Below are positions 7,103 through 63,018 of a DNA stretch of 64,000 nucleotides, in pieces. The notes under the pieces were generated by a model. The model was not told the origin of the DNA, did no database searches, and saw nothing but the letters and a program-made list of their open reading frames with translations. Within the stretch, counting starts at the first letter, position 1. Each line of letters begins with the position of its first letter. The stretch is from positions 372,001-436,000 of the forward strand of contig NZ_QOCL01000014.1 in assembly GCF_004006665.1 (NCBI RefSeq). Direction: 5' to 3'. The DNA comes from Halobacteriovorax sp. HLS. GTDB taxonomy: Bacteria; Bdellovibrionota; Bacteriovoracia; Bacteriovoracales; Bacteriovoracaceae. The translations under genes were made by a program, and so were the position numbers.

Positions 7103-8647
7103 GTGCCACATATACTAATTATTCTATTTTTCTTAATTCTATCACCGTCTTCTATTGCCGGAACTAACCTAGGTACGATCACTTCGGTTAAGAATGGGTT
7201 TGCAACTATTAAGGAATGTTCTGTAGCTGAAGAGGTGAGCTTACCTTGTAGGGAAAGAGACTTAGGAGTTCTTAGTGGGATTCTTGATCAGGTTTCAACC
7301 AATCAATGTATCACTTCAAGCGAAAGTTATAAGAATTTGCCCAAGTGTCCACAAGGAGAAGATCAAGTAAAAGGTTTAGATAATACTTATCCTAGTGGAG
7401 GAGTTTTTGTTACTTACCTTGTGGAGAACGCAGGTTTCGTTAAGCACTTAACTCAGCAGTTGCTTGAGGGAGATGAGCTAAGTAAAGTAAATATTGTTAT
7501 TCCACAAAAGTATGCAGCAACTATCTCTGAGCATCCAGATTTAGTTAAGGTAATCAATAATCCTAGAGTGAATGTCATTATATCGAAGACTTCTGTGGCC
7601 ACGAACTTGTGGATGCAAGATTATTTTCAGTTTACGAGCGTTAATGGGAAGCCGGCAATTTATCAACTAGAGCACATAAGAGAGTCTGGAATGTCTCTTG
7701 AGGCTAGGGTTGCCTGTGAGATTGCTAAGAGTTGTAATCTTCCATACTTTATTCCTCCTGATATGGTGAAGGAGAGAAATAAGGATGCTCGCAATATGAA
7801 TGCAGGGGGAAATCTTGAGGTTTTACCTGGTGGAACCTTTTTGAGAGGAGTTCAAAAAAGAGACGGTTATCAAAGGCCAAACTCTTCATGGGGAAGTTTT
7901 GCTGAAACTAAGACTCAGCGAGATCAAGAAGATGCTCTTGAAGATTCTAAAAATAGAGTATTAGACTTAGACATTTCTTTTGTTCAGACTGGGCATATTG
8001 ATGAATTGTTTAACGTTGTTAAGACTAATGCACCAGCTCCTTGCAATTATGCAATACTGGCCTCGGATCCTAAATTGGCCGTAGAAATATTGGAAAAGGA
8101 AGCAGCTAAGAAGAGAGAGATTTCTAAGAATTGTTCTGATTTTGATTATGAGAAATTGAAAAATAAATTTAATAAAGTTAAAGGGTTTTCAAAAACTGAA
8201 CTAGCAAATATTTATGCTTCTCAGTGTATTAATGGGCAAGACGTTAAGAGCTTTGTTTCCTCTAAAGTATTTTCTGTTCTAAAGAGAGTGAATGTTGAAC
8301 AAAGTGATAGTAATTACGATAGGCAAAGAGATAATATTAAAGATTTGGTTAAAGAGCTTAAAAAGACTACTAAGTGTAATGAACCTAAAATAATTTCTGT
8401 ACCTGTTCTTTTTAGAGATGGTTTTTCTTATACGCCTGAGTTAACTAATGGAGTTATTCAAACTCCTGAATCGGGGGCCTCTAGAGCAATTCTTCCAAGA
8501 ACTTACTTTGGACCATTTGATCAGTACATTGAAAAAGAGTTAAAAAAATATGGAGTTGAAACGACTCTAGTAAATGATTTAAATTATCACCTCAATAGTG
8601 GGGAAGTTCATTGTGGTACCAATACAGCAAGAGTGTGCCATGAGTAG
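7103..8647 (+). CDS. Secreted protein-arginine deiminase (PAD)-like enzyme
   Basis: A 514-residue exported protein with a signal peptide ending near residue 19 (SIAG). The three sequence blocks that make up the active site of vertebrate PAD enzymes are all present and in order. WMQD gives Asp173, TGHIDE gives His298 and Asp300, and GEVHCGTN gives Cys504 close to the C-terminus. In PADs these residues convert protein arginine to citrulline, usually with calcium. A NAGGNLEVLPGG segment precedes the His-Asp pair, as the GNLEVSPP stretch does in PADs. The protein differs from the unrelated Porphyromonas enzyme. It has only the catalytic domain plus an N-terminal region of about 90 residues rich in Cys. 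The GTG start at 7103 has no Shine-Dalgarno; CCGATAA ends seven bases upstream. The following gene overlaps its stop. Substrate and calcium need are not known. Confidence 0.8.
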   Translation: MPHILIILFFLILSPSSIAGTNLGTITSVKNGFATIKECSVAEEVSLPCRERDLGVLSGILDQVSTNQCITSSESYKNLPKCPQGEDQVKGLDNTYPSGGVFVTYLVENAGFVKHLTQQLLEGDELSKVNIVIPQKYAATISEHPDLVKVINNPRVNVIISKTSVATNLWMQDYFQFTSVNGKPAIYQLEHIRESGMSLEARVACEIAKSCNLPYFIPPDMVKERNKDARNMNAGGNLEVLPGGTFLRGVQKRDGYQRPNSSWGSFAETKTQRDQEDALEDSKNRVLDLDISFVQTGHIDELFNVVKTNAPAPCNYAILASDPKLAVEILEKEAAKKREISKNCSDFDYEKLKNKFNKVKGFSKTELANIYASQCINGQDVKSFVSSKVFSVLKRVNVEQSDSNYDRQRDNIKDLVKELKKTTKCNEPKIISVPVLFRDGFSYTPELTNGVIQTPESGASRAILPRTYFGPFDQYIEKELKKYGVETTLVNDLNYHLNSGEVHCGTNTARVCHE

Positions 8648-9062
8648 ATTAATACTAGCTTGTTTAATTTTTATTTCATCTTTATCTGCTAAAGAATACT
8701 TTGGTGGAGAGATAAAAGTTTCTGATACCAATAAGGCGAGCTTTACTTTATATACTCAAAATGACGATTATTTTTTGCAAGTATTTTTCAAAGAGAGTTC
8801 TGTAAAGTGTGACTTTAAAGTGAGAAAAATATCTGCTCCTGCTTGGTTAAAAGGAAGAAATGGAGTGATTCAGGCAGATGAGACTGGTTGTTCATTTCAA
8901 TTAAAAAATAAGACTCTAGAAAATTTTTGGAATGATGTCGTTACAATTGATATGGCCTATTACTTTACTGATAAAAGTAATCTTAGAGCTGATGTGACTA
9001 TAAATTCGCTGAAGAAAACGACTAAAGCCGCTGCATACTTTACCTTAAAGCCTCAAGAATAA
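8640..9062 (+). CDS. Small exported protein coupled to the PAD-like gene
   Basis: A 140-residue protein with a signal peptide (MSRLILACLIFISSLSA, cleavage probably before KEYFGG). Its ATG at 8640 lies inside the last codons of the PAD-like gene, sharing ATGAGTAG, so translation is probably coupled. Mature protein: a beta-rich-looking domain with two Cys that could form a disulfide. No family recognised. The context suggests a partner, chaperone or substrate of the PAD-like enzyme; this is inference. A longer in-frame start at 8598 is less likely because it would bury the signal peptide. Confidence 0.7.
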   Translation: MSRLILACLIFISSLSAKEYFGGEIKVSDTNKASFTLYTQNDDYFLQVFFKESSVKCDFKVRKISAPAWLKGRNGVIQADETGCSFQLKNKTLENFWNDVVTIDMAYYFTDKSNLRADVTINSLKKTTKAAAYFTLKPQE

Positions 9063-9063
9063 T

Positions 9064-9663
9064 TTATTGATGTAAGAACTCGAAAGTTCTCATTACTTCT
9101 TCAAAATACGGCCCTTCTACAGCACCATTTAAAATAGAACTTCTACTCTTTGCTAGCAAATAGGAGTTATTAATTAAGTCTTTGATTAAGTAGGCATCGA
9201 AGTAGACTCTTTCAGACATATCTTCTGTTGCTGTTCCTTCAATATGAATAATGTCGATTCGGCCTTCTTTGTAAGGGAGGAACTCCTCAAACACTGCAGG
9301 TACACCTGCGTGAGACTCTTCGGGGTCAAACATAAGTTTGAGATCTTTTAATTTGTTTATTAGTATTTCTTCGATTGATAGCTTCTCTAATTCTGAATCT
9401 TCGTCAAACCACTGTAGCTCGGCCTTCCAATCATAATGAGTATCAGCTCTTTTGAAGGATGCGTAGTTCTCGTCTTCATCAGCTGATGTTCTTGTCCACC
9501 AACTAGGAATAAAGAATATAAAGTTCTTCATTTCAAATTCTACTGCATTTTCAACGTAAGCTTCTTTTTCTTCTCTAATAGCTATCATTGTGTAAATCGC
9601 AAATAGAATGATGCCTAAAAAAATAGTCCATTCAAATAATCTACTTAAGTCCATATGATTCAA
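9064..9663 (-). CDS. Single-pass membrane hypothetical protein
   Basis: A 199-residue protein with one N-terminal membrane helix at about residues 11-27 and an acidic soluble domain after it, possibly periplasmic. The domain includes SWWTR and FDPEES stretches but no motif I know. The TTG at 9663 has AAGG five bases upstream. The ATG three codons further in (9654) is the alternative. It is convergent with the preceding gene, their ends one base apart, with no terminator between. Function unknown. Confidence 0.65.
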   Translation of the reverse strand: MNHMDLSRLFEWTIFLGIILFAIYTMIAIREEKEAYVENAVEFEMKNFIFFIPSWWTRTSADEDENYASFKRADTHYDWKAELQWFDEDSELEKLSIEEILINKLKDLKLMFDPEESHAGVPAVFEEFLPYKEGRIDIIHIEGTATEDMSERVYFDAYLIKDLINNSYLLAKSRSSILNGAVEGPYFEEVMRTFEFLHQ

Positions 9664-9753
9664 ACTAACCTTGATTATTGGGTCTGTAAATGTGGATATT
9701 TGTGATTTTTCTTATGTAATATCAGTGTATTGGCCCTATTTATTCCATAACCC

Positions 9754-9797
9754 TAAAGTTTTATCAATTAATTCCCGATAATTAGACGAGATATAAT
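9754..9797 (+). promoter_or_regulatory. Sigma-28 (FliA)-like promoter plus a sigma-70 -10 box
   Basis: TAAAGTTT at 9754-9761 equals the FliA -35 consensus. CCCGATAA at 9774-9781 matches the FliA -10 GCCGATAA at seven of eight positions. The spacer is 12 bases against the usual 11. A separate TATAAT lies at 9792-9797. Both precede the Gly-rich gene at 9835, and FliA itself is encoded at 31414 in this window. Confidence 0.5.
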
Positions 9798-9834
9798 AAA
9801 AAGCAGAACTTTTCTGCGATTTGGAGAAGAAGAG

Positions 9835-11502
9835 ATGAGACACTCAAGATCTAAAGTAAGTTGGAAACACTACCTTGTTGTTGCGGGATTTTCCCTCACT
9901 CAAGTCATGACAGCTTCAGCTGCTGACCAAGGAGTCTTTAACGATTGCCAATACGCTGGTGAAAGTAAAGAGATGTGTTACAAAATGGTTATGGCCTCAG
10001 AGTATGGTGGTGAAATTGATTGTGTAGAATGTCTCTTCTATCAGCAACCAGAACAAAATAAATTAGCAGAAACTCTTGGAGTGATTGCGGGACCATTGGC
10101 CTTTTTAGGGGCAAGTTACTTTGGTGCTAAATATCAATACAAGGGACAACAGGCTTGGGCAAATGCATATGAAGCAGGCCATACAGCATGTACTACAAGA
10201 TTTAATTCTTATCTAAACTACTCAACAGAAAGAGGAGCTGCACCAATCTTACCTGGAGAAGCAGAGTCATTTGCTGGATCTTGTAATGGATCTGGATTTG
10301 GTGGCGGCTATGGTGGTGGTGGCTACGGAGCTGGAGGGTATGGAGGATTTGGTGGCATGGCCGGAAATGGTTATGGCGGCTTTGGAAATCCATATTTATC
10401 CGCAGGGTATAGCCCTGGATTTATGGGTGGTATGATGGGACCTAACTTCGGTGGCGGATTCTCTGGAGGATTCGGTGGTGGAAATGGAATGGGCTTCGGT
10501 GGAGGTCTAGGTCTTGGAATTGGTTTAGGAGCAATGAATGGTCTCTTCGGAGGCGGTGGTGGAATGTATCCTGGCGGTGGTATCAGCGGTGGAATTAGCA
10601 TCGGTGGTGGCATGGGTGGCGGAATGGGCTACCCTGGAGGATTTGGAATTGGAATGAACCCGTACGGTGGTATGGGCGGTGGATTTGGTTACCCTGGAAT
10701 GGGTGGTGGAATTTACGGTCCTGGCATGGGAATGGGCGGTGGAATAAACGTTGGTATAGGCGGTGGTCTTGGCGGCGGAATGGGTTACCCTGGAATGGGT
10801 GGCGGCATCGGAATTGGCGGTGGAATGGGTTATCCTGGAATGGGTGGCGGCATCGGAATTGGCGGTGGAATGGGCTATCCTGGAATGGGTGGCGGAATTA
10901 ATGTCGGAATCGGCGGCGGAATGGGCTACCCTGGAATGGGTGGTGGAATCGGCGGCGGAATGGGTTACCCTGGAATGGGTGGTGGAATCGGCGGCGGAAT
11001 GGGCTACCCTGGCATGGGTGGTGGAATCGGCGGCGGAATGGGCTACCCTGGCATGGGTGGTGGAATTGGCGGCGGAATGGGTTACCCTGGTATGGGTGGC
11101 GGCATGGGCGGCGGAATCTTTGGCCCAGGAATGGTTCCAGGATCAATGGGGATGAATCCTTGGGGATCAGGTGGAGCTACTGGTAGTTACTGGAATAATT
11201 CTGGAGGATGGAATGGAGGAGCAAATGCTCAGTACCAACAACAACTTCAGCAGCAACGTCAGATGCAAATGGATATTCAAGGGCAGTCACAAGCAGGCTA
11301 TGCTAGAGCACAAGGTAATGCGATAACAGGACAAGCTGCGAATCAAGCCCTTTATCAAAATTACCAAAATGCAGCTCAAGACTTGTATCAGACTTCATAT
11401 TATGGAGGCGGAGCGAATGTTAATCCTTATGCAAATGGTTCGATGTATGGAGCTGGAAACTTAGGGTTTAACTTTAGTGTTGGTGGTTATGCTGGATTCT
11501 AA
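9835..11502 (+). CDS. Large exported Gly-rich repeat protein
   Basis: A 555-residue exported protein: signal peptide ending ASA-ADQ (about residue 30), then a Cys-containing head at 37-65 with five Cys. A hydrophobic segment follows at 79-98 (TLGVIAGPLAFLGASYFGAK). From residue 150 to 460 it is Gly/Met/Tyr/Pro-rich, built from GGGMGYPGMGGGI-type units, then a Gln-rich stretch (about 463-500) and a Tyr/Asn/Ala tail. Such sequences form disordered, sticky or amyloid-like surface material. No known family. GGAG lies upstream of the ATG within a purine-rich run. The promoter region carries a sigma-28-like site, so expression may be tied to motility. A perfect terminator follows. GC content is locally raised by the Gly codons. 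Confidence 0.8.
   Translation: MRHSRSKVSWKHYLVVAGFSLTQVMTASAADQGVFNDCQYAGESKEMCYKMVMASEYGGEIDCVECLFYQQPEQNKLAETLGVIAGPLAFLGASYFGAKYQYKGQQAWANAYEAGHTACTTRFNSYLNYSTERGAAPILPGEAESFAGSCNGSGFGGGYGGGGYGAGGYGGFGGMAGNGYGGFGNPYLSAGYSPGFMGGMMGPNFGGGFSGGFGGGNGMGFGGGLGLGIGLGAMNGLFGGGGGMYPGGGISGGISIGGGMGGGMGYPGGFGIGMNPYGGMGGGFGYPGMGGGIYGPGMGMGGGINVGIGGGLGGGMGYPGMGGGIGIGGGMGYPGMGGGIGIGGGMGYPGMGGGINVGIGGGMGYPGMGGGIGGGMGYPGMGGGIGGGMGYPGMGGGIGGGMGYPGMGGGIGGGMGYPGMGGGMGGGIFGPGMVPGSMGMNPWGSGGATGSYWNNSGGWNGGANAQYQQQLQQQRQMQMDIQGQSQAGYARAQGNAITGQAANQALYQNYQNAAQDLYQTSYYGGGANVNPYANGSMYGAGNLGFNFSVGGYAGF
10771..11115 (+). repeat. 39/45-bp tandem coding repeats
   Basis: In-frame repeats encoding GGGMGYPGMGGGI (13 residues, 39 bp), with the upstream copies 15 residues (45 bp). 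Neighbouring copies differ only at silent or near-silent positions, which indicates recent expansion by slippage or recombination. Copy number is likely to vary between strains. Confidence 0.85.
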
Positions 11503-54370: not shown

Positions 54371-54397
54371 GCCCGCTAGAAATAGCGGGCTTTTTTT
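54371..54397. terminator. Intrinsic terminator, GAAA loop
   Basis: GCCCGCTA (54371-54378), GAAA, TAGCGGGC (54383-54390), T7. The T-run includes the end of the minus-strand CNB gene, so the hairpin serves both transcripts. Confidence 0.95.
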
Positions 54398-54854
54398 ATG
54401 CAGCTTTATCTTTTTCCTTCTCTTGTTTTAATTGAGCTATGCTTTGTCCTGTTTTTTTAAGCCTTGTTGCAAGCATTCTTGCTAGATTAAGCATAAGGAT
54501 TGAAAATATTTTGTTATCGCTATTGTAGAGGCTAAAGATATCGTCATACTTTAGAACTAAGACGTCACAAAATGTAGAAGCAACTGTATCTGCATTTCTA
54601 GTTCTTTCTTTTAGAAGAACCATTTCTCCAAATAAGTCACCTTTTCGAAGTTTTCCAATCGTTATGTCATTTTTTATAACTTCGGCACTTCCTTGTAGTA
54701 TCAGAAAAATTTCATCTCCTTCTTCTTTTTCTTTGAAGATATAATCACCTTTTGTAAGATTTAAAACTTGGCAATTCTCAACAATCTTTAAAATTTCTTC
54801 ATCGTAGAGTTCGTAAAATAATGAACTCCCTTTTACTATTTCTAAGACACTCAT
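54396..54854 (-). CDS. Lone cyclic-nucleotide-binding domain protein
   Basis: 152 residues. KGDYIFKEKEEGDEIFLILQGSAEVI is the start of the cNMP-binding beta-roll, and GDLFGEMVLLKERTRNADTVA is the phosphate-binding cassette. A helix and a short Lys/Glu tail close it; no DNA-binding HTH. The conserved Arg of the cassette has a candidate (ERTRN). It might bind cAMP or cGMP and gate the neighbouring channel complex. Two bases separate its ATG from the channel gene's stop; last gene of the three-gene operon. Confidence 0.88.
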   Translation of the reverse strand: MSVLEIVKGSSLFYELYDEEILKIVENCQVLNLTKGDYIFKEKEEGDEIFLILQGSAEVIKNDITIGKLRKGDLFGEMVLLKERTRNADTVASTFCDVLVLKYDDIFSLYNSDNKIFSILMLNLARMLATRLKKTGQSIAQLKQEKEKDKAA

Positions 54855-54856
54855 TT

Positions 54857-55750
54857 TTAACCAACCTTTTTTAAGGACTCAGGCTTCTTTCTTAGTTCGG
54901 CGAGTATTAGCTCCATAGTTTCTCTAAGTTTTGGAATTTCTTTTTCCATACTTGCACTAGTCTGATCTTTTTGAAGGTGATACCAAAGTAATTGTAAAAC
55001 AGTTTCTACTTTCTCAAATGTGCCCTCTCGACTACTTTCGATAGGAAATAATGTATTCAAGAGAGTAAGGATAATAGAATAGAAAATACCTGCAATTGAT
55101 GTCTTCATAGCAAAAGTAACGTTGATTACGAACTGGGATAATGATTCACCAGACGCTTCTAGGTTATTAAAGTCAATTTTAGCAATCTCTGGTAGTGCGT
55201 TGGCAATACCTATGAATGTCCCAAATACCCCAAGTACAATAAATAGAGTAGGCATGATGTCTAGAATTCTAGTAACACCGTCAATTGGAATCTTTGTGAA
55301 GAGCTTAGACCAGTTTTCATCATCATTCATAACTCTTTCAGTAAGAGAAGAGAAGTCAGGCTGTGCTCTAGACATAAAAATATTTGATTCATTTTGAATA
55401 TTAGCGATCAATCCATGTTTACTACCAATGTATTCTCTAAGACCTACAGTTTCTGATTGCCCTTTCTTAAGTCTGTTTTCAAGAGGCTTTCTAAGATTTC
55501 TTTCTGGTAACCTTTGGTTAACTCTTCCTAGAATATCGGATAGGTAATCTTCAGTATCATCGCATTCTACTTTTTTACTCTTGTCCTCATTAATGGTAGC
55601 TCCAAGCTCTCTTGTAAAGTGAGAAAAGTAAGCTTCATCTCTTTTGCTATGGTGAAATGCCATCCATCTAAGAGAGAGAGCAACAACTGCCATTAAAGTC
55701 ATTGATTCAATGAGGTAGTTACTGAAGAAGTTTAATAGTGTTGTGATCAT
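54857..55750 (-). CDS. MotA/TolQ/ExbB-type channel subunit
   Basis: 297 residues. Helix 1 at about 13-31, a cytoplasmic domain of about 130 residues, helix 2 at 163-185 (DIMPTLFIVLGVFGTFIGIANAL) and helix 3 at 207-235. This three-helix ExbB/TolQ plan, with the PT..VLGVFGTFIGI core of the proton-channel family, suggests an ion-driven motor stator. It is not one of the flagellar MotA proteins, which have four helices. The start overlaps the stop of the large MotB-like gene by four bases, so the two are made together. Confidence 0.85.
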   Translation of the reverse strand: MITTLLNFFSNYLIESMTLMAVVALSLRWMAFHHSKRDEAYFSHFTRELGATINEDKSKKVECDDTEDYLSDILGRVNQRLPERNLRKPLENRLKKGQSETVGLREYIGSKHGLIANIQNESNIFMSRAQPDFSSLTERVMNDDENWSKLFTKIPIDGVTRILDIMPTLFIVLGVFGTFIGIANALPEIAKIDFNNLEASGESLSQFVINVTFAMKTSIAGIFYSIILTLLNTLFPIESSREGTFEKVETVLQLLWYHLQKDQTSASMEKEIPKLRETMELILAELRKKPESLKKVG

Positions 55751-58581
55751 AGTTCACCTTCTTGGAATTGAATTATTTTTTCTAAAGCTTTAGGATCATC
55801 TTTTAGTGTAAATGTTAGCTCCACTCTTTGTGACAACTCACAAGAGTACTCGCCACAATTTTGATCATTCTTTCCGTCATCAGATATAGATGCCAAGAAG
55901 CGACCCTGTTCAGGCTTCTTTATTGGTCGCATATATCCATGTCCTATAGATCTTGTAATAGATCTCATATAATTCTTGTGATCATATTTAACTCTTTGTC
56001 CGAAAATAAAGTTACTAATAGATGTGGCCCTTCTCGCTGATAAATTCAAATTGTAGTTATACGGTCCTGGCGCACTTGTTTCTGGCGAAACGTAAGTCTG
56101 ACCAAAACTTGGTGAAGCATGACCTTCAATATTAAAACTCGAAATCTTTTCTTTTATTGCAGAGTCACTAAATAACACTTCTGAATAGAGAGGAATAATT
56201 TTAGCAAGTTTCTCTTTAGCAAACTTAGAAAGTTTTGCACTATTGGTCTCAAATAATAGATTCTTGTCCATTAATAAAGTCACTGTACCTGTTTTAGGAT
56301 CAACTTTGGCCTGAATGTCAGCGGTTTTAAATTTGTTGGCAAGATTTGAAGCAATATTACTTCTAAGATTTTGTTTTTCACTGTGAATCTTGTTGGCAAT
56401 GTTTTTGATATGATTTTTTAGACCATTATTCTTCGCAATGAGTTTATCTTTTGTTGTTGAACATTCTTTGTTTTCTCTTTTAAGACCTAGAACGGCCTGA
56501 CCAAATTCTTTGTTTTCATTTTGACAAATATTGAAATTTGAACTTACTTGGTTAAGTTTGCCAGATAGAGCGCCATTTTCTTTCTTCAGGGCATCATTAT
56601 TACCTTGTGCGCTCTTTAAATTATTTTCCAAGTTACTGGCCAGGTCTCTAAGCCCAGTATTCTCTTTGGATAGACCTTCATTGATTCCTTTTAAACCTTC
56701 ATTATCTCCTAATAACTTACCAATCTGACCATTAGCACTTGCAAGCTTTTCACTTAGGCCTTTGTTCTTTCCATCCATGCCTTTGAGTTGGCCTTCAAGT
56801 TGACCAATCTTATCTTTAAGTCCACCGGCCTGTCCTTTAAGCTCACCAATTTTACCATTAGCACTTGCGAGCTTTTCACTTAGGCCTTTATTCTTTCCAT
56901 CCATGCCTTTGAGTTGGCCTTCAAGTTGACCAATCTTATCTTTAAGTCCTCCGGCCTGTCCTTTAAGCTCACCAATTTTACCATTAGCACTTGCAAGCTT
57001 TTCACTTAGACCTTTATTTTTTCCATCCATGCCTTTGAGTTGGCCTTCAAGTTGACCAATCTTATCTTTAAGTCCACCGGCCTGTCCTTTAAGCTGACCA
57101 ATTTTAGCGTTAGCACTTGCAAGTTTTTCGGCCATTGCTTTATTATCACCATCTAAGTTGCTAAGTTGTCCTTGGAGGGTATCTAACTTAGATTTTAAAC
57201 CTCCATTAGATTTTTGAAGTTTTTCATTCTGTTGATTAGCACTGCTCAATGCTTGATTTAGTTTTTCATTTTCTAGGGTTGCGCTATTTAGCGATCCATC
57301 TTTAGACTGTAATGCCTTTTTAAGTGACGCTGTTACATTTTGGGATTGGTTTAGCTTTTGTGTAGTTTCTTTAAGTTTGCTCGCCAATTCTTCTTTCGAT
57401 GAACCTAGTGTCTTTAGTTGATTGTCTAGGCTTTCTACCTTTTTAGATAGTTCAATCTCCTTGCTCTGTAATTCGGAGTTCATATTTTGTGATATGTTAA
57501 TTTGATTTTCAGCTTCTTTAAGTTGTGTCTTAAGTTGCTCGATCTCTTTTAAATCATGGTTGATTTTTTGCTGACTAGAAGAAATTTTATTTTGGTCTAA
57601 AATGGCCTTTTCTTTTAGTTCCTTGTTTTCTCTTTGTGCCTTTTCTATAGTTTTTGCAAGAGAGCTCTTTTGAATTTTATTCTCTTCAAGCTCTTTAATT
57701 TTTTGTGTGTATTGTTGACTAAGTTCTACATTCTTTACTTGTTGACCCTTTAATTCTGATTCGAGCTTGTTGATTGTCTCTTGCAGAGTTAGTTTTTGCT
57801 GGTTAATTTCCTGATTAATCTTCGCAATCATTGCTTGATTACTAGATTCTAGTTGTTTTATCTTAGATTCATAGGATTCGCTTTCTTTTAATTTTTCTTG
57901 TTTTATATTTGATAGGGCATTTTCATACTTCTGCTTTTGACCTTCAAGTACTTCTCGATTTTCTTTATCTTTTTGTTCTATTAGATCTTTAGCGACTTTC
58001 TTCTCTTCTTCAAAGGCCTTTTTAATCTTCTCTTTTGCTATTGTTTGCTCTTCAATTTTCTTACTTAGACTAGTTACTTGCGAAATTTTTCTTTCTAGTT
58101 CTTTAGTGGTTATCTCTTTTTCCTTCTTGAGGGCATCATTTTTTGATGCCTCTAAAGCAAGTTTCTTTTTCTGTTCATTTATAGATTGATTAACTTTAGC
58201 AAGAAGTGCTTCTTTCCTATTTTGTTCTTTTAAGAGTTCTTGCATTACCTCTTTATTAGACTCCATTTTTACGACAAACTTATTAAGGTCTTTTACTTTT
58301 TGATCAATAATATTCTTATACTGTCCTACTTCATCAATAGACTTCTTAATAATTTCTACTTTCTTTTGACTCTTTTCTTGGTTTTCTTTAGATATCGAAC
58401 CTTCTAGTTCCTTTTCAAATGTTTTCTTTTGAGCGATTCTCTCCATAGTCGAGACACCGACTTTAACCATCGCAAATACAAACATTGTTAGAAAGATAAT
58501 GGCCATAGTTGTGAACATATCAGAGTAAGAACTCCAAATTTGCCCGTCATCGGCCTTTTTCTTTTTCTTCTTCATGCCCAT
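55747..58581 (-). CDS. MotB/OmpA-type protein with giant coiled coil
   Basis: 944 residues. A cytoplasmic MGMKKKKKK start is followed by W-x3-Y-x-D (WSSYSD, Asp21) and one helix (about 22-42). This matches MotB, in which the Asp carries the proton. About 700 residues of heptad-like, Lys/Glu/Gln-rich coiled coil follow (about 50-730), including three 42-residue copies at 491-617. An OmpA-like peptidoglycan-binding domain occupies about 765-930. It has LLMDKNLLFETNSAKL, IEGHAS and NLSARRA; the usual GHTD is GHAS and a segment of about 20 residues is inserted. The coil would be in the periplasm, roughly 100 nm if one straight helix. Overlaps the channel gene. Confidence 0.85.
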   Translation of the reverse strand: MGMKKKKKKADDGQIWSSYSDMFTTMAIIFLTMFVFAMVKVGVSTMERIAQKKTFEKELEGSISKENQEKSQKKVEIIKKSIDEVGQYKNIIDQKVKDLNKFVVKMESNKEVMQELLKEQNRKEALLAKVNQSINEQKKKLALEASKNDALKKEKEITTKELERKISQVTSLSKKIEEQTIAKEKIKKAFEEEKKVAKDLIEQKDKENREVLEGQKQKYENALSNIKQEKLKESESYESKIKQLESSNQAMIAKINQEINQQKLTLQETINKLESELKGQQVKNVELSQQYTQKIKELEENKIQKSSLAKTIEKAQRENKELKEKAILDQNKISSSQQKINHDLKEIEQLKTQLKEAENQINISQNMNSELQSKEIELSKKVESLDNQLKTLGSSKEELASKLKETTQKLNQSQNVTASLKKALQSKDGSLNSATLENEKLNQALSSANQQNEKLQKSNGGLKSKLDTLQGQLSNLDGDNKAMAEKLASANAKIGQLKGQAGGLKDKIGQLEGQLKGMDGKNKGLSEKLASANGKIGELKGQAGGLKDKIGQLEGQLKGMDGKNKGLSEKLASANGKIGELKGQAGGLKDKIGQLEGQLKGMDGKNKGLSEKLASANGQIGKLLGDNEGLKGINEGLSKENTGLRDLASNLENNLKSAQGNNDALKKENGALSGKLNQVSSNFNICQNENKEFGQAVLGLKRENKECSTTKDKLIAKNNGLKNHIKNIANKIHSEKQNLRSNIASNLANKFKTADIQAKVDPKTGTVTLLMDKNLLFETNSAKLSKFAKEKLAKIIPLYSEVLFSDSAIKEKISSFNIEGHASPSFGQTYVSPETSAPGPYNYNLNLSARRATSISNFIFGQRVKYDHKNYMRSITRSIGHGYMRPIKKPEQGRFLASISDDGKNDQNCGEYSCELSQRVELTFTLKDDPKALEKIIQFQEGEL
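56731..57108 (-). repeat. Three 126-bp coding repeats in the coiled coil
   Basis: Units begin at 56731, 56857 and 56983, exactly 126 bp apart, nearly identical in DNA and encoding 42 residues (6 heptads). A partial copy follows from 57109. Recent tandem duplication. Confidence 0.92.
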
Positions 58582-60674: not shown

Positions 60675-62111
60675 TCATTTCTTAGAGTATCTACCTGGAG
60701 CAATAACAGAATTTGGATCTAGAATATCTTTTATACTCGCAGCAATGTTGAAGAAATTTGGAGCTGCTTGAGTCAAGCTTTCCATATGAGCGACACCCAT
60801 TCGGTAAGGGTAAAATCCCTTTTTTCTCCCCGTTTTAAGTAAATCATTATAGCAATTGTGAGCATTGAGTGTCTCATCTCTTGTGTCCGTTTTGGAAAAG
60901 AGAATAGGGACAGTAGAGTCAAATATTGCATGTCCAAGAGATGTTAGAGTAATTAAAGGCTCAATATTATATTTCTCACATATATCTCTAATGAATTGTG
61001 TATATTCATTCACAGATTTTGAATTCATTTCAACTAGAGGCGAGTACCAAATTAGTCCACAATTGTCTTCATCAGGATTAAAGGTTTTCTTTGCTTGTGG
61101 ATTTTTTAAGTAACATAAATTTAGGGCCATCTTTGTAGGTCTTCCGTTTAGGATGTAAAAGAGCTCCTCTGCCGAATCTAAGTCTTTCTTGATAGACTTT
61201 GGCAAAGGTAGATATTTGAGAAGCTCAATTTGTCTTTTGTTTATGCATGAAATCTTTGCGTGTTTTTTTAGAGATTTCTTAATGGACTTCTTTACTGCTT
61301 TGACAATATTTTTATCTGAATTGATAGATAGTATCCCTGTCCAGTCTTCAGCTTTTTCTACTCCCATGGAGAGCATTCTCTCCTTATTCATTAAGTTTAC
61401 TCCCGATAAAAGAGAAGGGTAATCTTGTAAATTACTTTTTATCGAATTAATAACATTACTTAGTTGATCACTAGAAAATGTAAATTTTAAAAGCTCAATA
61501 TGCTTTGCTCTTTTTGCAAGTTGAATAGTGACTTGAGTTACAATTGCAAAGTTGGACTGACTGAAAATACCATTTAAGTATGGGCCTATTCCCCATCTAA
61601 ATTTCTTTGCTAGTCCTTCTCCTACAATTTCATCCAATGATGAATTGAATACCCTTCCATCTCCTAAATATGCTTTTAAACTTATTAGAGCGCTGAAATG
61701 ATCTTGTATTGGTGCAAGTCCGTACCCTCTTTCGAGTAAGTTTGATAAAACACTTACATCAGGCCCAGCTCCTGTAGAAGGTGTTATATAATCTGTATTT
61801 TTTAGAAAGTCATAGAGTTGACCTTGAGTCACTCCTGGACCCAAGGTTATGATTCCATCTGCTTGATCGAATTTAATAATTTCATTTAAATGTATGAGAT
61901 CAACAATGACATTATTGTGACTAACAGGACTCGCAGAACCATAGCCCCAGTTCTTACCTGAAGAAATAGGCCATAGTTTCAGACCTTCCCGGTTCGCTTT
62001 TTCTATAATTTGTTGAACTTCTATTTCTGACTTTGGCATAAATACACCATCTATATTCCTGTGAATATCGAGTGTGTTTAGTGCATAATTTCTTAAAGCA
62101 GTCATATTCAT
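60675..62111 (-). CDS. Vanillyl-alcohol oxidase / 4-cresol dehydrogenase-like flavoprotein
   Basis: 478 residues with the PCMH-type FAD domain. ISSGKNWGYGSASPV and the later IVDLIHLNEIIKFD and GPGVTQGQLYDFL match 4-cresol dehydrogenase closely. ERGYGLAPIQDHF and FRWGIGPYLNGIFSQSNFAIVT follow, also family marks. The C-terminal cap domain is shorter than in vanillyl-alcohol oxidase (about 560) and 4-cresol dehydrogenase (about 520). The family oxidises para-substituted phenols or related alcohols; the real substrate here is unknown. Possibly second gene of a two-gene unit: the acyltransferase-like gene ends eight bases upstream. Confidence 0.88.
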   Translation of the reverse strand: MNMTALRNYALNTLDIHRNIDGVFMPKSEIEVQQIIEKANREGLKLWPISSGKNWGYGSASPVSHNNVIVDLIHLNEIIKFDQADGIITLGPGVTQGQLYDFLKNTDYITPSTGAGPDVSVLSNLLERGYGLAPIQDHFSALISLKAYLGDGRVFNSSLDEIVGEGLAKKFRWGIGPYLNGIFSQSNFAIVTQVTIQLAKRAKHIELLKFTFSSDQLSNVINSIKSNLQDYPSLLSGVNLMNKERMLSMGVEKAEDWTGILSINSDKNIVKAVKKSIKKSLKKHAKISCINKRQIELLKYLPLPKSIKKDLDSAEELFYILNGRPTKMALNLCYLKNPQAKKTFNPDEDNCGLIWYSPLVEMNSKSVNEYTQFIRDICEKYNIEPLITLTSLGHAIFDSTVPILFSKTDTRDETLNAHNCYNDLLKTGRKKGFYPYRMGVAHMESLTQAAPNFFNIAASIKDILDPNSVIAPGRYSKK

Positions 62112-62119
62112 CTCACTTT

Positions 62120-62833
62120 TTAGGCAGTTTTCTTAATGTCTTCATTTTCAATTGTTCTAAAATCAATGATTTCATCATAGAACTTCTTATATCTCTTTCC
62201 TGCATTTCTGGATTCAAGTGAGAAAGAAGTCATTGCCATTGCTCGAAATTTTTCGTTCATGATATGTGGAGCTGCAAATGTAGAAAGTTCACAGTCATTA
62301 TTAATATAGTTATAGCCTTGTTTTAATCTAATATTATAAACCTTAAACTTATCCGATGCGGCAGTAATAAATGTATTAATATTTTCATCTTGGTGATGAA
62401 GATAGTAAAATGCCATCATCATCTCAGACAACAGAAGCTTCTCATCAGCTGAGAGGTTAGGGTTAATTGTATAGTTATTAGTATAGCAAATTGTTTCATT
62501 ACTATTGATAAACTCTTGACACGAATTAGATAATTCATCTTTCTTGTTAACAAACATATGCTCAATAAATGGGAAATCTTTTAAGTAATTTTCTGTTTGT
62601 TTGTTTGTAATTGAGCGTAAGCAGATTTGAGGAATGAGTTTACCTTCTTCTTCAGTTGCAATAACTAAATGTGTTCCAATGAAGTCAAAACAGTCTTGAG
62701 GAATTGATTTTTCTCCATAGTACTTTCGATAGCCTTCAAACCGCAAGGCGAGAATATCTGAAAGTAGCTCCCTTTGCTTAGGACTAAACGCGTAAGAGCT
62801 TACGAGATCCGAAAGAATAACAAATTTCCACAT
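62120..62833 (-). CDS. Possible GNAT/autoinducer-synthase-like protein
   Basis: 237 residues. ATG at 62833 has GGAGG eight bases before it; a longer in-frame start at 62911 is not supported. The opening ILALRFEGYRKYYG followed by DCFDFIGTHLVIATEEEGKLIPQICLRSI looks like the N-terminal half of LuxI-like and FeeM-like acyltransferases: an R..Y segment, a D..D, and a G.L beta turn. The second half is unlike them. The adjacent phenol-oxidase-like gene suggests a small biosynthetic unit. Assignment is weak. Confidence 0.5.
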   Translation of the reverse strand: MWKFVILSDLVSSYAFSPKQRELLSDILALRFEGYRKYYGEKSIPQDCFDFIGTHLVIATEEEGKLIPQICLRSITNKQTENYLKDFPFIEHMFVNKKDELSNSCQEFINSNETICYTNNYTINPNLSADEKLLLSEMMMAFYYLHHQDENINTFITAASDKFKVYNIRLKQGYNYINNDCELSTFAAPHIMNEKFRAMAMTSFSLESRNAGKRYKKFYDEIIDFRTIENEDIKKTA

Positions 62834-63018
62834 GTAAATAACCTCCGTTTTGTAAATAAAGGTTATTATGCATGGAATCTTAAAATAATAGTAAGACTTA
62901 TATAATATCAATACTTTGAGTTAGAAAGGTAAGAATTATTACAATAAATTTAATGGCAGATACGCAGATTTCTTCATATATTTACTTCAATATTTCTTGA
63001 AAAAAATCCTGCAAGCCA

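Follow-up and report, generated by a model that had tools for sequence, protein, structure and literature searches.

The window analyzed here is a 64,000-nucleotide stretch of the 3.84-Mb genome of Halobacteriovorax sp. HLS (contig NZ_QOCL01000014.1, positions 372,001 to 436,000), and it carries three tightly packed genes coding for a MotB/ZorB-like protein with a very long coiled coil (the B subunit), an ExbB/TolQ/ZorA-like channel protein (the A subunit) and a small stand-alone protein with a cyclic-nucleotide-binding (CNB) domain (Table 1). An earlier annotation, made by a model from the letters alone and called the original prediction below, had proposed a three-gene operon on the minus strand, and its coordinates proved exact, as did the 4-base overlap of the MotB-like and channel genes and the 2-base gap between the channel and CNB genes. 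Convergent with the operon is an rpsA-type gene for a ribosomal-protein-S1-type protein with six S1 domains.

Table 1 Features of the three-gene unit and its downstream border in the window.
Feature	Position	Strand	Basis or remark
MotB/ZorB-like subunit, 944 aa	55747..58581	minus	open reading frame (ORF), profiles, model
N-terminal stretch, approximately residues 13-45, WSSYSD with Asp21 and transmembrane (TM) helix	58447..58545	minus	conservation
In-frame tandem repeat within the coil, 126 bp = 42 aa = 6 heptads, 3.3 copies	56719..57129	minus	
C-terminal 235 aa of the MotB-like protein: final coil segment and ZorB-type peptidoglycan-binding domain	55750..56454	minus	alignment, model
ExbB/TolQ/ZorA-like channel subunit, 297 aa	54857..55750	minus	ORF, profiles, model
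Stand-alone CNB protein, 152 aa	54396..54854	minus	ORF, Pfam
C-terminal tail KKVG of the channel protein	54860..54871	minus	family pattern K-x-[AG]-[AS]
C-terminal tail DKAA of the CNB protein	54399..54410	minus	family pattern K-x-A-[AS]
Strong terminator-like stem-loop	54370-54391		common to the operon and the convergent rpsA-type gene

For comparison, homologues of the channel gene were collected together with their flanking DNA, giving a set of about 45 distinct loci. The order MotB-channel-CNB, which the original prediction had suggested looking for in Bdellovibrionota, is kept across this set, and the CNB gene is retained in 42 of the 45 loci, including one (L044) where it is inverted relative to the other two genes and still adjacent to them (7281-7775 of that locus); it is missing in L069 and L139, while L131 ends at a contig end. 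Gaps inside the unit mostly lie between -13 and +20 bp, with extremes of approximately -38 and +48 if L057, where the B gene is split, is excepted. Outer neighbours are usually more distant, often on the opposite strand and mostly unrelated between genomes. Since the same set and order recur in so many loci with short internal gaps and unrelated outer neighbours, it is clear that the three genes are a genuine unit, far beyond chance. Several genomes (G002, G082, G037, G047, and G023) hold two copies of it.

The AlphaFold2 model of the channel protein (predicted local distance difference test, pLDDT, 79.9) has three TM-length helices in an ExbB/ZorA-type fold, with TM1 followed by a cytoplasmic domain of about 125 residues, TM2, TM3 and a C-terminal helix of about 52 residues (237-288 of 297); in the clade the protein is approximately 291 to 372 residues long. 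Conserved positions are G174, G177, T178 (invariant), P187, T217 (at least 90%), S218 and G221, of which T178 and T217 are at the positions of the pore threonines of ExbB and TolQ. A fold search with the model gave ZorA as best match, then TolQ and ExbB, with flagellar stators appearing only near rank 45, and the best match in a profile-to-PDB search was likewise ZorA (8qyk, 1.6e-6). The predicted fold thus bears out the ExbB/TolQ-like three-helix channel that had been proposed, despite a weak Pfam score.

The B subunit consists of a short cytoplasmic N-terminus, a single TM helix with Asp21, the coiled coil and a ZorB/OmpA-type peptidoglycan-binding domain. Asp21 of the WSSYSD motif is conserved family-wide except in one apparently mis-called ORF, and W16, S18, D21, F30, L31 and F34-A37 of the N-terminal stretch are conserved to at least 90%. 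The original prediction had called this Asp proton-type; the residue is present and conserved, but the ion type cannot be read from an Asp alone. A periplasmic position of the coil is suggested by the MotB-type layout and by a Cys pair in the OmpA-like domain, invariant across the family alignment, and not by lysines; the pair fits a periplasmic disulfide.

The C-terminal domain of B matches the ZorB1 model of PADLOC with E=3e-32. In a structural model of the C-terminal 235 residues (pLDDT 86.6) the top five PDB matches were all ZorB, of types II and I (8vvi, 8vvn, and 8qyd), and the profile-to-PDB search with the B subunit also had ZorB as best match (8vvi, 4.7e-12). The domain carries the motifs G-[HF]-[AS]-S-P (GHASP in the window) and N-x-x-L-S-x-x-R-A (N-x-x-L-S-x-R-R-A in the window). 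In ZorB II the peptidoglycan-binding residues are H141, S143, R215 and R230 (PMC11890865), and the H-x-S and Arg positions appear to have counterparts here, H-x-S being matched to GHAS by reading of the motif. The original prediction had placed the pair among ion-motor-type A/B subunits, which was correct, while both profiles and folds put its nearest relatives at ZorA and ZorB and not at generic Exb or Tol proteins.

Between the TM helix and the wall-binding domain the coil of the window protein occupies residues 46-734, that is 689 residues without a proline and with a hydrophobic period of exactly 3.50 (power 52), and as a straight helix it would measure approximately 102 nm. A coil of about 700 residues and 100 nm had been predicted, and both figures stand for the window. 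The length is not a functional constant, as it varies 5-fold: among complete clade-A proteins (556-1758 residues) the coils span 301-1503 residues, all with a period of 3.49-3.52 and at most 8 prolines. A tandem repeat of 126 bp is found in the coil gene of the window as well as of L040 and L043, and the coil of about 1500 residues in the 1758-residue B subunit of L059 (8748-14024) is built from nested tandem repeats of 63, 126, 186 and 189 bp. Because 63, 126 and 189 bp equal 3, 6 and 9 heptads, such changes of coil length stay in register. The coil is clearly no fixed ruler. Pfam also matched the coil with ATG16, SMC and proteins of that sort, which was dismissed as an effect of low-complexity coil sequence.

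The third gene codes for a clear CNB domain (63 bits, Pfam cut-off 27.5), as the original prediction had stated. Its profile matches domains of the cGMP-dependent kinase, PKA and CRP types. The phosphate-binding cassette FGEMVLLKERTRNA contains F75-G76-E77, with G76, E77 and R86 invariant across 31 sequences and FGE...R[TN]A preserved in most relatives, and it counts as a complete cassette of the cyclic-nucleotide-binding proteins; position 87 is Asn in the window (R-N-A) and Thr in most relatives (R-T-A). The genome of the window has ten CNB-domain matches and one class III cyclase, on another contig, and with a largely intact cassette the proposed control by cyclic AMP or cyclic GMP is plausible. 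The protein was also considered as a Pycsar or CBASS effector; this was rejected, as it is a stand-alone protein of 152 residues without TIR or TM fusion and has no cyclase next to it, the sole class III enzyme detected being encoded on a different contig.

The channel and CNB proteins share a C-terminal tail, and this conserved common tail is new here. The pattern K-x-[AG]-[AS] occupies the last four residues of 34 of 44 channel proteins and 27 of 40 CNB proteins, compared with 6 of 473 neighbouring proteins (Fisher p approximately 1e-38 and 1e-29, respectively) and none of 41 B subunits. Information is 1.4-2.5 bits at the final four positions and approximately 0.3-1.0 before them, the preceding residues not being conserved. 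In the genome of the window, DNA coding for KKA[AS] before a stop codon is likewise overrepresented (17 occurrences, 2 for the reversed pattern), and KKA[AS] ends at least eight unrelated signalling or membrane proteins (G000: L153, L154, L157, L164-L167, and L169), which from their sequences would be a hybrid kinase, CheB-like, RDD-like and HD-GYP-like proteins, a channel, an antiporter and others. The tag of the transfer-messenger RNA ends in MPMAA, and the terminal Ala-Ala of ssrA is the key element for ClpXP (PMC7652416). The simplest reading is that the tail is probably a ClpXP-type degron, the alternative being a common docking signal, and it is possible that KKA[AS] serves as a general C-terminal degron in this genome.

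In the reading that we find most likely, and to which we give an even chance, the unit codes for a cyclic-nucleotide-regulated, wall-tethered accessory envelope motor of the 5:2 type within the ZorAB/MotAB/ExbBD superfamily. Five channel subunits would surround a dimer of B, and ion flow through the Asp/Thr pore would drive rotation of A and B relative to each other. In the periplasm the two B chains would pair in parallel into a long coiled-coil rope. At about 100 nm a straight rod is too long for this space, and the rope would have to run alongside the membrane, double back on itself or gather into a bundle. Its far end would grip the cell wall, so that the motor would act on the wall from afar, by winding it, pulling on it or sensing its strain. 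Produced together with the channel, the CNB protein would dock on the cytoplasmic face of the channel and act as a switch operated by cyclic AMP, cyclic GMP or a related nucleotide, and the K-x-A-[AS] tails of these two proteins, both facing the cytoplasm, would set the lifetime of the complex, either through degradation or through docking.

Several points weigh against this reading. The 5:2 stoichiometry, the contact between CNB protein and channel, ion flux and rotation are all presumed. The channel protein scores 19.8 bits against Pfam MotA_ExbB, which is under the cut-off of 22.9, and the N-terminus of B is acidic in many homologues, a caveat for the topology. With Asn87 in the CNB protein of the window, ligand binding may differ, and the tail, being present on unrelated proteins too, need not be motor-specific.

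Coil length varies extremely and without constraint (approximately 300 to 1500 residues), as would be expected of a slack tether more than of a torque rod, and a CNB regulator is typical of gated channels. The unit could therefore be a nucleotide-gated ion channel that senses wall strain or wall distance and is not a motor, with the coil as a passive tether through which movement of the wall would open the plug. The Asp/Thr pore is however fully conserved, as in the rotary relatives, and these likewise couple wall binding to channel opening, which makes the two readings overlap; we consider a pure sensor distinctly unlikely. The cellular purpose may lie in wall mechanics, in envelope defence or in both; a motor or strain-gated channel is most likely, and roles in defence or predation are less likely.

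The closest known system is Zorya. ZorAB of types I and II (8qyd, 8vvi, and 8vvn; PMC11890865) resembles the window pair in the combination of TM Asp and pore Thr, in the three-TM A subunit and in the OmpA/Pal-like domain of ZorB, and supplies the best sequence and fold matches for both subunits; a ZorB-type B subunit with a TM Asp and a peptidoglycan-binding domain is thus present. In Zorya, on the other hand, the long tail is on A in the cytoplasm, whereas here the long coil is on B in the periplasm, and the Zorya order A-B-effector contrasts with B-A-CNB. As a ZorA the window channel obtains approximately 34 bits, against 175-432 for the true ZorA controls found by the same search (L145-L148, one with ZorE), and 29 bits against a cut-off of 190. 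No ZorC, ZorD or ZorE effector gene was seen among the neighbours of the approximately 45 loci or, within the families listed, in a PADLOC scan of 83 neighbouring proteins. Membership in Zorya was rejected because of this absence, the lack of a long ZorA tail, the reversed gene order and the low ZorA score. One of the control loci (L146, on an Ignavibacteriae contig) is itself an unusual Zorya-like locus, with a short ZorA-like gene (314 residues, 7893-8837) and a ZorB-like gene (9478-10200) separated by one gene.

Other known motors are further away. Flagellar MotAB and PomAB share the TM Asp, the OmpA-type domain on B and a plug-like N-terminus, but their A subunit has four TM helices instead of three, MotB has neither a coil of 300-1500 residues nor a CNB partner, and the window protein stays under the cut-offs for MotB_plug (PF13677, 17.5 bits, cut-off 24) and OmpA (23.5 bits, cut-off 27.2). 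TolQR and ExbBD are alike in the three-TM layout and pore residues of A, but the fold of TolR and ExbD differs from the OmpA/ZorB type found here, and none of the partner genes for TolA, TolB, Pal or TonB was seen among the neighbours. The AglRQS-Glt machinery of Myxococcus has a TolQ-like A subunit, with AglQ/S of the ExbD/TolR type and not the OmpA type (PMC3169522); the window cassette has a single B gene, of the OmpA type. No Glt/Agl, Tol or pilus genes travel with the cassette among the neighbours of the homologous loci, and a gliding or Tol operon was rejected for want of adjacent partner genes. According to a survey of MotAB proteins, OmpA-type domains are missing from generic non-flagellar B subunits, and ZorAB is treated as separate (PMC12505986); the window family is therefore an addition on the ZorAB side. 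The original prediction had pointed to the long coil on B and not on A as the departure from Zorya, and this is upheld; the architecture also differs from the Tol, Mot, Agl and Zorya sets that have been described. We found no published description of the family in the open-access literature.

At the sensitivity used, the cassette turned up in no phylum but Bdellovibrionota, the reach outside this phylum being judged by a single pattern-based scan. The homologous loci examined confine the family to Bacteriovoracia and close relatives. Of 369 genomes of the phylum, 184 gave relatives in a profile search, and most genomes of one genus (f6:g83), which we take to be Bdellovibrio, were among them. 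Three congeners (G001, G003, and G004, 99-100% complete) lack the cassette at the same site and have no relative elsewhere in the genome; in these the rpsA gene is directly followed by the trypsin-like protease gene that flanks the operon in the window. The fourth congener (G002) has the operon at other sites. The cassette is a discrete accessory element that is gained and lost. In eight loci (L047, L048, L050, L051, L053, L058, L061, and L063) it occupies a conserved site, just downstream of a gene for a DEDD-type exonuclease-like protein (257-308 residues) and a divergent sensor-kinase-like gene (531-540 residues).

This distribution bears on two further explanations. According to the first, the unit is an anti-phage system with Zorya-like logic, where the motor would sense envelope disturbance, the CNB protein would relay or receive a nucleotide alarm, and the effect would be an ion leak and not a nuclease. 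That ZorA and ZorB are the closest relatives of the two motor subunits favours this explanation, as does a patchy cassette that is missing at the same site in congeners and differently placed across genomes. However, no ZorC/D/E-like or other effector gene lies alongside, the 83 neighbouring proteins gave only scattered generic matches in PADLOC and Pfam (proteases, methyltransferases, and a DEDDh exonuclease), and no relative was found in 2.9 million viral contigs at the search sensitivity used. Moreover, the large subgroup at one conserved site, and a sister family (see below) that is nearly universal in sampled Bdellovibrio, are atypical of defence genes. We regard a defence system as unlikely. 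A defence-island context was rejected, the neighbours being housekeeping genes. The DEDD-type exonuclease gene was considered as an effector, but its own neighbours are conserved as well and it is approximately 100 bp away, which makes conserved synteny the simpler explanation.

The second explanation, a motor for gliding, prey entry or another part of predation, had been raised in the original prediction and did not find support. The restriction to Bdellovibrionota, the presence of the sister family in most sampled Bdellovibrio genomes and a B subunit that reaches through the periplasm would all suit such a role. Yet three of the four sampled congeners are without any relative, and since the cassette is absent at the same site in these three, it must count as an accessory element that is unlikely to belong to the core apparatus of predation. 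In addition, no Glt or Agl partners are adjacent, and the main text of a transposon-sequencing study of Bdellovibrio predation names no such MotB, ExbB or OmpA gene among its hits (PMC6561027). A predation motor is in our view very unlikely.

The sister family consists of more distant channels (19-39% identity) with a MotB-like gene upstream whose coil is shorter and less regular. The gene order B-A, the channel tail, the Cys pair and the Asp are as in the window cassette, but in place of the CNB gene there is a downstream gene for a protein of 738-1440 residues that combines a long coil with a C-terminal TM helix and sometimes also has an N-terminal FHA domain (for example L073:7951-10335, L076:4874-7135, and other cluster-3 ORFs). 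An FHA protein (GltG) is also part of Glt, but that one is TonB-type, unlike the long-coil protein of the sister family. Of 25 sister channels 13 carry the tail pattern and 24 end in A, S or G. A FastTree phylogeny of the channels, with only two cellular paralogues included, places the two families as sister groups with ZorA outside, at moderate supports (0.85 and 0.80) and with one odd sequence within each group. The FHA-coil protein was looked for in the genome of the window and none was found. Going beyond the single cassette, we propose with some hesitation, and as a possibility rather than an expectation, that the two families make up a distinct class of nucleotide-gated envelope motors, separate from Mot, Tol, Exb, Agl, Gld and Zorya, where ion-driven rotation would wind a peptidoglycan-anchored coiled-coil rope with a contour length of 45-220 nm, and where a CNB branch (Bacteriovoracia) and an FHA branch (Bdellovibrio and allies) would share a degron-like tail tying motor turnover to the cell cycle.

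The window family and its sister show that the ZorAB-type motor is more than a defence module, related A/B pairs being combined with two regulatory partners, CNB or FHA-coil, across Bdellovibrionota. The repeat-driven change in coil length offers a natural experiment on the role of the spacer between motor and wall, and the common C-terminal tail makes it possible to test how these predators might dispose of their motors and signalling proteins.

Elsewhere in the window, at 60675-62911 on the minus strand, there is a gene for a flavin adenine dinucleotide-binding oxidoreductase followed by a gene of 263 residues without Pfam match. Neither gene is present at the equivalent position in any of the four congeners used for comparison, and the region adjoining the operon is therefore variable as well.

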